DNA of 64,000 nucleotides from Aestuariispira ectoiniformans (GTDB lineage Bacteria > Pseudomonadota > Alphaproteobacteria > UBA8366 > Aestuariispiraceae): assembly GCF_025136295.1 (NCBI RefSeq), contig NZ_CP062788.1:806001-870000 (forward strand), read 5' to 3'. Positions 14,713 to 18,320 of the stretch are shown in pieces; the stretch's first letter is position 1; every line of letters starts with the position of its first letter. The notes beneath the pieces were generated by a model. It ran no database searches, was not told the origin of the DNA, and saw only the letters and a program-made list of their open reading frames with translations. A program made the position numbers and the translations under genes.

Positions 14713-14722
14713 AGAGGATGTG

Positions 14723-15130
14723 ATGTTCGACAGTAAAATTTCGATTGTCCTGCGGGATGATCTCGAGAATTGGCAGAAGATGAATGTGGTGGCGTTTTTA
14801 ACCTCCGGCATCGTTGGCCAGAACCCGGAAATCCTGGGTGCGGAATATGAGGACGCCGCAGGCAACCGGTTCAATCCGCTGGCAGTGCAGCCGATGATTG
14901 TTCTGTCAGGCGACGGGACGACCTTGTCCAAAATTCATCAGCGCGCACTGACCCGGAATTTGCGGACATCCGTTTATATCGAGGAGATGTTTTCAACCGG
15001 CCATGACGCCGCGAACCGCGCTGTCTTCAAGGAATACGGCCCGGAGGATGCCAAGATTGTCGGCCTTGCCATCCGCGCCGACAAAAAGGCCGTCGACAAA
15101 GTCACCAAAGGCGCAAAAATGCACAGTTGA
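14723..15130 (+). CDS. DUF2000-family protein
   Basis: A 135-residue soluble protein that looks like a DUF2000 member. No catalytic function is established for that family, although its fold has been related to peptidyl-tRNA hydrolase 2-like proteins. The N-terminus SKISIVLRDDLENWQKMNVVAF and the central NPLAVQPM segment match my recollection of the family. I choose the ATG at 14723, with GAGGA 4 nt upstream, over a GTG at 14720. It follows the MarR gene closely, so it may be the regulated target. Confidence 0.72.
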   Translation: MFDSKISIVLRDDLENWQKMNVVAFLTSGIVGQNPEILGAEYEDAAGNRFNPLAVQPMIVLSGDGTTLSKIHQRALTRNLRTSVYIEEMFSTGHDAANRAVFKEYGPEDAKIVGLAIRADKKAVDKVTKGAKMHS

Positions 15131-15137
15131 GGTGTTC

Positions 15138-15170
15138 AGCGCGTGATGCTGGGCCAGTCGCGCAGGCGTT
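15138..15170. repeat. 33-bp direct repeat, copy 1 (left end of LysE/Lrp insert)
   Basis: Identical over 33 bp to 16451-16483, which is the 3' end of the cNMP-binding protein gene. Read on the minus strand, this copy also encodes the same last residues (RLRDWPSITR) followed by TGA. It therefore looks like the former end of that gene before the intervening 1.3 kb arrived. Confidence 0.9.
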
Positions 15171-15191
15171 ACTCTGCTTTTCTGGAAAGTC

Positions 15192-15812
15192 CTAGAATTC
15201 CGACAGGATCAATGAAACACCGATTGTGAAAACAATCAGCCCGGCGATTTTGCAAATTACATTACCGTTGCGGTGACTCATAAGAAAGTCATGCCCGCTG
15301 CCGGATGCGAAAATGCCAACGGACGAGTAGACCACGAAGCACAAACTGCTCGTAATTGTTCCGAAGATCAGAGCATACAGCCAAAATGGCATTGTTCCGG
15401 GAATGTAAAATTGTGGAAGAAGGGAGAAATAGAAAATAAGACCCTTCGGATTAAGAACGCTGGTAAAGAATCCGTATTTTACGTCATTGACGACTTTTAT
15501 CTGATCTGGTCCGCCAGATGAAAAACTCTGGATGTCAGCCACAAACAGCCGATAGGCGAGATACATCAGATATGCCATGCCCAAGAGCTTGAATCCAAAG
15601 AATACATTTGGATAGGCTTTGAAAACCGCCTCAAGGCCGACAGCAACAAGAAGGGTGAAGACGAGATAGCCGCTTGATATGCCGATGGCGGCTTTGATGC
15701 CAGCATTCCTTCCATCGGCCAGTGACCGGCTTGTGACATAAAGCATGTCCGGCCCGGGAACGATGATAAGACTGAGCACCGTAATTAAAAATAGCGTGAC
15801 GTCCCCTCCCAT
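15192..15812 (-). CDS. LysE/RhtB-family amino-acid exporter
   Basis: A 206-residue inner-membrane efflux protein with about six hydrophobic helices. The LysE signature PGPDMLYVTSRSLADGR near the N-terminus (about 17-35) includes the conserved PGP, and NPKGLIFY lies near 125. These proteins export amino acids such as homoserine, threonine, lysine or arginine. Start is the ATG at 15812 after a strong GGGG; an upstream extension to 15860 is unlikely. The divergent Lrp-type gene beside it is the usual regulator of LysE exporters. Codons are clearly more AT-rich than in the neighbours, and the pair sits between 33-bp direct repeats, so it was probably acquired together. Confidence 0.9.
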   Translation of the reverse strand: MGGDVTLFLITVLSLIIVPGPDMLYVTSRSLADGRNAGIKAAIGISSGYLVFTLLVAVGLEAVFKAYPNVFFGFKLLGMAYLMYLAYRLFVADIQSFSSGGPDQIKVVNDVKYGFFTSVLNPKGLIFYFSLLPQFYIPGTMPFWLYALIFGTITSSLCFVVYSSVGIFASGSGHDFLMSHRNGNVICKIAGLIVFTIGVSLILSEF

Positions 15813-15957
15813 TAACCCTGCCCCTTTCCTGCCAAAGTATCGATTGCCATCTGCGGGCACCTGTTTAAAGACAGCCTCTGGTTGACTGATAAGCTTTTAG
15901 TTGCTGTTTATAGTATACAGATGACTATTTTGCGTTGTGGCGAAAAGGTTGCGAAAT

Positions 15958-16452
15958 ATGAGCGTAATTGGACGGTTAGACAGGACAGATTTTCGTATAT
16001 TAACGATTCTGCAGGAAAATGCGTGGACGTCCACGAAAGAGCTCGCCGCGCGAATTAACCTGTCTCTCTCAGCAACCAGTCAGCGCGTTAAAACGCTCAA
16101 AGATGAAGGGCATTTGATCGCGGCGCATGCGGTCGTCAATGAAAAGACGATGAACATGCGGTTGGAAGCTCTGATTTTAATCCAGTTGGATAAGCATGAT
16201 GGAAGCGTCGTCGAAGAGTTTCTGGAGGAGATAATCGCCATTCCGGAAGTGAAATCCGCTTTTCTGATAACCGGGCGTTACGACATCGTTGTTAATGTCG
16301 GTGTTTGTGACACCGATCATCTCAAACAATTGGCGTTTGAATGCTTCACAAACCGTCCGTATATCACGAAGATTGAGACGTCGTTGGTCTATGATTCAAT
16401 CCATAGTCGGGTGATGACGCCGTTGGTTCCCCGAACGGAAGGAAAAGCCTAG
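15958..16452 (+). CDS. Lrp/AsnC-family transcriptional regulator
   Basis: A 164-residue feast/famine regulator. An N-terminal winged helix-turn-helix (about 5-60; LDRTDFRILTILQENAW and SATSQRVKTL) is followed by an RAM ligand-binding domain (about 70-150). I take the ATG at 15958; a GTG at 15937 is an alternative. It is divergent from the LysE exporter with 145 nt between, which suggests amino-acid-dependent control of export. Its TAG stop overlaps the stop of the convergent cNMP-binding gene by 4 nt and lies on the right-hand repeat junction. Confidence 0.9.
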   Translation: MSVIGRLDRTDFRILTILQENAWTSTKELAARINLSLSATSQRVKTLKDEGHLIAAHAVVNEKTMNMRLEALILIQLDKHDGSVVEEFLEEIIAIPEVKSAFLITGRYDIVVNVGVCDTDHLKQLAFECFTNRPYITKIETSLVYDSIHSRVMTPLVPRTEGKA

Positions 16453-18320
16453 CGCGTGATGCTGGGCCAGTCGCGCAGGCGTTGGCTGAAGATATCGATC
16501 AGGCGGCGCAGGACAGGGTCGAAATCCTGGAGCTTGTCCAGCCGCTTTTTCAATGCCTCGCCGGACAGGGCGGACACCTCCGCTTCCTCCACAGCGCGGG
16601 CGGAGGCCATGCGCGGCATGCTGTTGATCAGGGCCATCTCGCCGGTCACATCACCCCGGCCGATCACGGCAATTACCTGATTGCCCTTTTCCTGCTCCAG
16701 GATGATTTCAACCCGGCCCTTGTGGACGAAATAGGCATTGTCGCCTAATTCCCCCTGCCGGAAGATATAGCTGCCGGCGGGATAGACCAGATGGCCGGTC
16801 TTTGTCTTGCGCGGCTTGTCCCTGTTTTCCTCCAGCGTCAGTTCCGCCTCGTGAAGGTCCGCAGGCAGGGGCTGTTTCTCACCCAGATCGCTTTTGGATA
16901 TTGCTGACAGGGCGATATCGAACAACTGGCGGATCTCCGCCTTGACCTCTTTCGGGGTGACCGACTGGTCGAGGCGCGCGAGAAGGCTGTCTTTGGTCTG
17001 TTCCAGTTTTTGCGGATTGGTGGCGATATCCGAGGGGAAAAGCGGCGGGGTCTTGATCGCCTCGGTCAGGACGTCAATCACCGTGGTGGTGAGAGCATCC
17101 AGATTGCGCCGTCCGAAACGGCTGTAGAGCATGTCGAAGAGATACCCCAGCCGCGCCATCTTGTTGGGCAGAAGGCGGCAGACCTGTTCCAGGCAGCGCA
17201 CCGGCGACAGGTCCTCTTCGTTCTGCGACAGGGCGGACAAGGCACGAAGCGTGAGTGCCTCCGCCATATTCGGGCCGCCGGCAAAGCCCATATCCTGACG
17301 CAGGATACTGGCCAGCAGGGTCAGGGCTGCGGCATCCGTCACCTTGCCGACGCCGATCCGCCCGCTGCGGCGGAAATAGGCGGCGACCCGTTCCATCATG
17401 ACGGTACGGGTATAAGGCAGGATGAAGCGGGTCAGCGCCTTTGCAAGCCGTTCCAGCGCCTTGGTGGTCCAGCGGTCGGTCTCCCAGCGCCCGGTGCAGA
17501 TACCGGCCAGGGTCTGCATGGCGGCAAGCTGGTGTTCATGCGGACCCAGTAAATCCTTCAGGGCTTCTGCATTGTCGCAGATTTCCGCAATGGCCCCGTC
17601 CAGATGTTCCTGCAGGTTGCGGCCATAGTCGCTTTCCAGATGGTCCAGCAGGACAATGAGCTTGTCCTCCCAGCCGCCCTGTTGGCCCAGTTCCTTTGCC
17701 AGCGCGCTCAGGATCGCATATTCGTTGTCGATCTTGCCCTGGGTTTCTTCGGCCAGTTGGGCAAGGGGCGACAGGTCGCTGTCCGTGCCTTTTTTGGAGG
17801 TCGGGTCTGTCTGCCCGGCGCGGTCACAGATTTCCTTGGTGGTTTTATAGAGGAAGTCGACCCGGTCCTGGTAATTCTCTTCGGAAATGCGGGCCTGCAT
17901 GGAGGCAATTTTCTGCACGCCGCGATCATAGAGATCGCTGTTGCGCATCACGAGGCGCAGATGATTGTGATTGAACAACAGTTCCAGCGGCGTCAGAAGC
18001 TCGCGCGCGGTGTAATGGCGCAGCAACCGCCCCAGCGCCAGCCGGGCGTCCACGGCATAGAAATCGTCGATTGTCTTGCAAGGCGGCGCTGTTTCCACCG
18101 TGGCGATGGTGAGCTTGCCTTCCTTGCGCTGGCAGGCCTCTTCAAAAATGACTTCCGGCTTGGCGCGCTTTTCGTCTTCGCGGACAACGCGAATGGCGTC
18201 AAATTGCCCAGCCTGGACCAGGGTGCCGGCAATCTTCAGAGCGCCGCGTTCCTGATCGTGGACGGAATCGATCGTCCAGCGGCCTTCACTTTGCGTCTGC
18301 ACTTCAAAAGAGACTGTCAT
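16449..18320 (-). CDS. Large alpha-helical protein with C-terminal cyclic nucleotide-binding domain
   Basis: A 623-residue cytoplasmic protein. Residues about 1-500 form a mostly helical region I do not recognise. The C-terminal cyclic nucleotide-binding domain (about 508-610) has FRQGELGDNAYFV, the phosphate-binding cassette GEMALINSMPRMASA with Glu and Arg in place, and a helical end. Without a DNA-binding helix it is not a CRP-type regulator. A scaffold or sensor that responds to cAMP or cGMP is plausible. The 3' end has been rebuilt by the adjacent insertion, changing TGA to TAG but keeping the protein end. Similar proteins occur as hypotheticals in Rhodospirillales, to my recollection. 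Confidence 0.82.
   Translation of the reverse strand: MTVSFEVQTQSEGRWTIDSVHDQERGALKIAGTLVQAGQFDAIRVVREDEKRAKPEVIFEEACQRKEGKLTIATVETAPPCKTIDDFYAVDARLALGRLLRHYTARELLTPLELLFNHNHLRLVMRNSDLYDRGVQKIASMQARISEENYQDRVDFLYKTTKEICDRAGQTDPTSKKGTDSDLSPLAQLAEETQGKIDNEYAILSALAKELGQQGGWEDKLIVLLDHLESDYGRNLQEHLDGAIAEICDNAEALKDLLGPHEHQLAAMQTLAGICTGRWETDRWTTKALERLAKALTRFILPYTRTVMMERVAAYFRRSGRIGVGKVTDAAALTLLASILRQDMGFAGGPNMAEALTLRALSALSQNEEDLSPVRCLEQVCRLLPNKMARLGYLFDMLYSRFGRRNLDALTTTVIDVLTEAIKTPPLFPSDIATNPQKLEQTKDSLLARLDQSVTPKEVKAEIRQLFDIALSAISKSDLGEKQPLPADLHEAELTLEENRDKPRKTKTGHLVYPAGSYIFRQGELGDNAYFVHKGRVEIILEQEKGNQVIAVIGRGDVTGEMALINSMPRMASARAVEEAEVSALSGEALKKRLDKLQDFDPVLRRLIDIFSQRLRDWPSITR
16451..16483. repeat. 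33-bp direct repeat, copy 2 (right end of LysE/Lrp insert)
   Basis: Perfect match to 15138-15170. This copy forms the present 3' end of the cNMP-binding gene. The unit from repeat to repeat is 1313 bp. Confidence 0.9.

Follow-up and report, generated by a model that had tools for sequence, protein, structure and literature searches.

A LysE/Lrp gene pair inside a duplicated gene end in Aestuariispira ectoiniformans, and two similarly built inserts, as candidate integrative mini-elements with no recognised recombinase

The duplicated gene end and its insert

The window analysed here is a 64,000-nt stretch of the Aestuariispira ectoiniformans chromosome (NZ_CP062788.1, positions 806,001 to 870,000). 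It contains an insert of 1,280 bp, E1 (15171..16450; positions are those of the window unless the chromosome is named), at the 3' end of a gene for an intact 623-aa protein with a C-terminal cNMP-binding domain (16449..18320, minus strand; domain assigned by Pfam). E1 carries two divergent genes: a LysE-family exporter of 206 aa (15192..15812, minus strand; PF01810, E 4.5e-26), whose stop lies 21 bp from the left repeat, and an Lrp/AsnC regulator of 164 aa (15958..16452, plus strand; Pfam). No recombinase gene was recognised in it. Its guanine-plus-cytosine (GC) content is 46.9%, against 57.5% for the sampled chromosome, and about 1.3% of 1-kb windows are as low. On the other side of the insert lies the convergent neighbour of the cNMP gene, a DUF2000 gene (14720..15130, plus strand; Pfam).

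E1 is bounded by an exact 33-bp direct repeat (15138-15170 and 16451-16483). This is the longest exact direct repeat of the window, the runner-up measuring 19 bp; the pattern had no match in 100 shuffles of the window, and a search of the 4.36-Mb chromosome with up to three mismatches allowed gave these two copies of the 33-mer and no other. Read on the minus strand, the repeat consists of the last 10 codons of the cNMP gene (...RLRDWPSITR) and the first T of its stop codon. In the gene-attached copy (16451..16483, minus strand), this T is completed by an AG supplied by E1, giving the present stop T/AG at 16449-16451. The distal copy (15138..15170, minus strand) is the original gene end, now a bare gene fragment, and there the T is completed by GA from the old flank, giving the old stop T/GA at 15136-15138. 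At the right junction of E1 (CT/AG), the TAG stops of Lrp on the plus strand and of the cNMP gene on the minus strand overlap in CTAG (16449-16452). If the insert and one repeat are removed in thought, the inferred empty state leaves the convergent cNMP and DUF2000 genes with their stops 5 bp apart. The predicted fold of the 33-mer is unremarkable (z -0.33).

A sequence-only reading had described a perfect 33-bp repeat around an AT-richer LysE/Lrp pair, both copies encoding the end of the cNMP gene, one closing in TGA and the other in TAG. The searches above agree with it on each of these points. Its further proposal, that an insertion struck the 3' end of a protein gene and restored it, is well supported. 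It had also suggested looking for other cargo at the 33-bp site and for a larger, integrase-bearing element there; neither was found in this genome, in which the 33-mer is confined to its two copies.

The cNMP gene looks full length, since its homologues stop at a like distance after the RLR motif: four homologous proteins (the second genes of loci L082 and L085, and those of L083 and L086) end 5-8 residues past it, and the window protein ends seven past it. The exceptions are L084, where the frame continues into the following gene, and the first copy of each tandem in L082 and L085, which ends differently. Full-length homologues are only 29-33% identical among the 98 genomes searched, which include this one and none other of the genus. 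A search of genome contigs, from which records very near the window may be left out, returned no relative of the cNMP protein. No relative of DUF2000 or MarR was found at 29 relative cNMP loci, and none of the window neighbours was found at the orthologous place in five larger cNMP stretches, where only a short-chain-dehydrogenase-like window protein was matched, and that by paralogues.

Origin of the LysE/Lrp pair

LysE-family proteins are present in 64 of the 98 genomes (own included), the best match outside the own genome having an E value of 6e-27 and 31% identity. Among 385 genomes of the class (own included), the LysE gene of E1 is the sole gene passing E 1e-28. A contig search with one genome per species retrieved 10 LysE loci, of which seven belong to Pseudovibrio at 53-62% identity and the other three stand at 25-31%. 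Each of the seven Pseudovibrio loci has an Lrp gene nearby (51-61% identity); it is adjacent and divergent to LysE in six of them, and in P. stylochi one radical-SAM-like gene lies between the two. In phylogenetic trees, both LysE and Lrp group with Pseudovibrio and are nearest to P. stylochi (61% and 63% identical, respectively). The LysE group has full support and the Lrp group 90/80, with 93/88 for the pairing of Lrp with P. stylochi; a long-branch warning applies to other parts of the Lrp tree. Relatives of LysE and Lrp in plasmids are all below 60% identity. Judged from these affinities, the LysE/Lrp pair is of foreign origin and horizontally acquired, with the Pseudovibrio pairs as the nearest kin found. 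The pair occupies two different places within Pseudovibrio and is therefore mobile on an evolutionary time scale. In the four loci examined, the Pseudovibrio pairs are flanked by no more than short imperfect matches in two copies, and a scan of all 10 LysE loci (L068-L077) for repeated gene tails, as described below, detected none.

Some further features of these genes were observed. The intervening gene of P. stylochi (4544-5983 of L068), which from its sequence we take to be radical-SAM/B12-binding-like, hints at a modified product as the possible substrate of the exporter. In six Pseudovibrio loci (L069-L074, at about 4.9-5.4 kb), Lrp is convergent with a similar 168-aa protein; in the one locus compared (L069), this protein aligns with the cNMP domain of the window at 29% over 92 aa. 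The window Lrp is likewise convergent with a cNMP-domain gene, possibly by chance. The genome holds 17 LysE-family matches in all, including two tandem paralogues (14480-15784 of L091).

Two further inserts behind gene ends

The chromosome was scanned for genes whose last 8 or 10 codons plus stop, with one mismatch allowed, are repeated within 25 kb. The scan covered 2.424 of 4.362 Mb (56% of the chromosome). It yielded E1 and two further inserts, E2 and E3. Another 52 rows, from three places where paralogous sequence is repeated, were set aside: 33 in the block 2,840,001-2,900,000 (repeated paralogous open reading frames, ORFs), 12 in a repetitive region at 1,308-1,313 kb and 7 in a duplicated gene at 3,443-3,464 kb. 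E2 and E3 are built in the same way as E1, and the identity of the tails ends inside the stop codon (E1 and E2) or one base past it (E3). All three lie within 177 kb (0.69-0.88 Mb), for which P is 0.014 if three places are drawn at random in the sampled 56%, a post hoc value with E1 as the starting point.

E2 lies behind polA, about 52 kb from E1 (chromosome 874136-875243; 4136-5243 of L088). A second copy of the last 53 bp of polA, which reach to the TA of the stop, lies 1,055 bp downstream, with 53 of 53 positions identical. The insert comprises 1,002 bp and has a GC content of 44.4%; it contains a coiled-coil ORF of 188 codons besides noncoding sequence that is GC-rich in part. In the other 288 genomes of the class that were searched, nothing matched the ORF at E 1e-4, and no further copy of E2 is present in the genome. 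Rfam gave no match above threshold in the E2 region; one match below the gathering score lay outside the insert and one was at chance level. Behind polA, no second tail was found at 29 best-matching relative loci within the 0.7-1.5 kb of downstream sequence covered, where a copy behind a larger insert would escape.

E3 lies at 696.7 kb (chromosome 696733-698799; 10733-12799 of L108). Here the tail of a gene for a 1,068-aa coiled-coil protein recurs 2,005 bp downstream, and the 1,943 bp between have 39.5% GC. Their cargo is a gene for an anti-phage dCTP deaminase (NCBIfam NF041025, 474.5 bits with a cut-off of 400; PADLOC dCTPase, E 6.5e-167) and an ORF of 65 codons for which no match was found. 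Within the class the deaminase family occurs sporadically, in 17 of 385 genomes at E 1e-20 and above the cut-off in 13, own included. No relatives of the deaminase were found in viral contigs; in plasmids there are 63 records, two of them at 60-80%.

The two tails of E3 differ at 6 of 62 nt, and all six differences are silent; the first 28 nt are identical. One more difference, not counted, lies outside these 62 nt, at what may be the boundary with the insert. Roughly one random change in four is expected to be silent, so that the chance of six silent differences is 2.5e-4 with every change free, and about 0.004 with the gene-attached copy restricted to silent change. Because the downstream copy is free to decay, differences that arose after insertion should include replacements. 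The pattern suggests that the coding version of the tail probably came with E3 itself, which would have sat behind the same gene elsewhere, and it favours recombination at gene ends, as in the element e14 at icd of Escherichia coli K-12, over target-site duplication. In E1 and E2 the two tails are identical at each insert, so element and host origins of the tail cannot be told apart there.

The nearest relative among the genomes searched (G003) stands at 83% for polA and at 54% for the E3 target gene, compared over its last 400 aa, and its gluQ is 74% identical to the gluQ beyond E3. In this genome the target gene is convergent with gluQ, 61 bp apart, with neither E3 nor a second tail. Across 19 best-matching relative loci, none has a second tail behind this gene within 1.5 kb downstream (0.12 kb in two of them), a range in which a larger insert would hide the copy.

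Other repeats and unusual regions of the chromosome were also recorded. Exact direct repeats were listed over 2.024 Mb; three whose copies lie 1.1-2.2 kb apart were not flagged by the tail scan (445053/446121, 80 bp; 3423049/3424526, 25 bp; 3709800/3711954, 27 bp), and a further one of 24 bp lies at 3,318 kb. A tRNA-Ser island (chromosome 201490-211706; L118/L119) of 10 kb is bounded by a 120-bp repeat overlapping the tRNA-Ser gene and contains an integrase match at 202575. The region 2846000-2862000 (L120/L121) is densely packed with paralogous ORFs in repeated copies, contains numerous exact repeats of 50-300 bp and adjoins an integrase match at 2862254. Finally, 20 kb at 2200001-2220000 (L098) have 41.8% GC in a genome of 57.5%, perhaps marking a large island.

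Proposed mechanism

We consider it somewhat probable that E1-E3 are integrative mini-elements that carry a gene tail; their recombinase would either be supplied in trans or have disappeared together with the remainder of a larger element. An incoming cassette, most likely a circle, would carry a copy of the target gene's tail. Recombination between the end of the cNMP gene and the tail of the element would then insert the 1.28-kb two-gene cassette. The gene would keep a full coding end, now at least partly supplied by the element, and the original gene end would remain beyond the cargo as the second repeat. Such a process would work like phage-type integration at the ends of protein genes, as in e14 at icd, except that the element carries cargo only. 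The circle, the recombinase, its source and the mobility of E1-E3 are what we infer from the arrangement of the three loci. The sequence-only reading had likened E1 to integrative elements; the two further cases make a process of that kind more likely than a one-off accident, and with no recombinase recognised in E1-E3 the likeness itself stays at the level of interpretation.

Several observations weigh against this proposal. No integrase, excisionase or relaxase was recognised among LysE, Lrp and the 188-aa ORF of E2 with Pfam, NCBIfam, PADLOC and PHROGs, and for E1 this agrees with what the sequence-only reading had noted of its 1.3 kb. The same null result was obtained for the E3 deaminase (NCBIfam, PADLOC and PHROGs) and for two short ORFs (one or two libraries). 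Palindromes resembling recombinase core sites are not significant in the tails with arms of 8 bp (p 0.05 for E2, 0.09 for the exact 28 bp of E3, 0.43 for the whole E3 tail and 0.56 for E1) or of 9 bp (p 0.12-0.69), and we therefore claim no helper recombinase. Judged by eye, no motif is common to the three tails. The empty site of E1 itself was not seen, and G003 also lacks a 145-codon ORF beyond E3, so that the two loci differ by more than E3. Lastly, plain duplication would fit E1 and E2, their tail copies being identical.

The genome contains four Phage_integrase matches, all outside E1-E3. Two other routes of insertion were considered and set aside: end joining, as no Ku gene was found in the genome, and transposon ends, as E1, whose ends were scored against shuffles, has no significant terminal inverted repeats (p 0.11).

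Alternative explanations

The inserts may be decayed islands, that is, remnants of larger integrase-bearing elements that lost everything except cargo and attachment (att) sites. This is the lost-recombinase case of the mini-element proposal itself, and the probabilities of the two overlap; taken separately, we regard it as unlikely. Cis-mobilizable elements (CIMEs), as defined in one source (PMC5704250), lack genes for integration and transfer yet keep attL and attR, and the tRNA-Ser island with its integrase match shows a classical-looking island in the same chromosome. However, E1-E3 are all 1-2 kb long, with neither a recombinase fragment nor any remnant gene recognised in them. The genes of E1 are packed up to the repeats, the LysE stop lying 21 bp from one and the Lrp stop at the other. 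Moreover, the noncoding tail copies are still identical in E1 (33/33) and E2 (53/53), which leaves little time for decay after insertion.

Homologous import would be a different route: DNA from a relative in which gene tail, cargo and tail copy were already joined may have arrived by transformation, transduction or gene transfer agents, with long flanks serving for the recombination. The gene-attached tail of E3 is a silent variant of the downstream tail, as expected of donor DNA, and the clustering of three cases within 177 kb points the same way, with the P value of 0.014 being post hoc and E1 the starting point. Import accounts for the spread of such an arrangement, but not for the first joining of tail and cargo, and each of three unrelated target genes would need such a donor. 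We judge it improbable, to about the same degree as decay.

Recombination by the host between short repeats, needing neither RecA nor a dedicated recombinase, could likewise form a circle and integrate it, as has been described for the microcin H47 island of E. coli. No recombinase was recognised here either, and the repeat differs in each case; for H47, one report has excision apparently involving none of the 16 site-specific recombinases of K-12 (PMC5426353). Such recombination alone leaves unexplained why all three repeats are gene tails that end at a stop codon, and we think it slightly less probable than decay or import. Target-site duplication or staggered-break repair, in which fill-in would have duplicated 33 bp of the target on capture of foreign DNA, would account for the identical tail copies of E1 and of E2, but is very improbable given duplications that end at the stop codon, the six silent and no replacement differences of E3 (probability about 0.004 under duplication and drift), and a genome with no Ku gene found and no significant inverted repeat at the ends of E1.

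Returning to the tail-carrying mini-elements, a stronger version may be put forward tentatively, and we rate it as doubtful. E1-E3 could represent an unrecognised class of integrase-free cassettes of 1-2 kb, each specific to the 3' end of a single protein gene, using the tail as attachment site and carrying a small payload (an exporter, a regulator or an anti-phage enzyme), with one common recombination system mobilising them in trans. Chromosomes often contain single foreign genes, including anti-phage genes, without a visible vehicle. If mini-cassettes flanked by gene tails were general, they would offer a vehicle for such lone foreign genes. They would also have a simple search signature, the last codons and stop of a gene repeated a few kilobases downstream, which is easy to detect, as the recovery of e14 at icd by the same scan shows. 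The source of the recombinase would then become a directly testable question.

Comparison with known systems

The closest parallel is e14 at the 3' end of icd in E. coli K-12, where the gene end is duplicated around the element in two versions that differ mostly silently, the icd tail and icdC. The repeat measures 165 bp, with 12 nucleotide differences that change two amino acids, and its identity ends one base after the stop; the tail scan used here recovered it. As in elements of the e14 type, a direct repeat of the target gene's end flanks E1 (33 bp), E2 (53 bp) and E3 (62 nt, with six silent differences). Unlike those elements, E1-E3 have no recognised integrase: e14 spans 15.2 kb with annotated intE and xisE, whereas E1-E3 measure 1.0-1.9 kb. 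The tRNA-Ser island of the same chromosome likewise has a duplicated gene end around a span of DNA, but its target is a tRNA gene, its repeat 120 bp and its length 10 kb, and it has an integrase match. In fungal mitochondria, elements that bear an endonuclease bring a replacement carboxy terminus to the gene they enter. A gene tail brought by the incoming element itself would be common to both cases; the mitochondrial elements encode an endonuclease, and none was recognised in E1-E3.

Absence of an integrase has precedents. The microcin H47 island of E. coli is, according to two reports, a cargo island without a recombinase of its own, bounded by direct repeats, for which both excision and integration were detected (PMC3191183, PMC5426353). 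It is 13 kb long and its mobility was tested, whereas the 1.0-1.9 kb of E1-E3 are known from sequence alone. CIMEs, by their definition, retain attL and attR and have lost the genes for integration and transfer (PMC5704250). E1-E3 resemble them in having att-like repeats, as putative att sites, and no recognised integration or transfer genes. CIMEs, however, derive by decay from an integrative and conjugative element or an integrative and mobilizable element, and no such ancestor or relic was seen for E1-E3. Among the titles and beginnings of abstracts retrieved from an open-access library, we found no description of gene-tail cassettes of 1-2 kb. Integrase-free precedents are known in H47 and the CIMEs, and the three inserts of this chromosome suggest that very small mobile DNA of such a kind has been overlooked.

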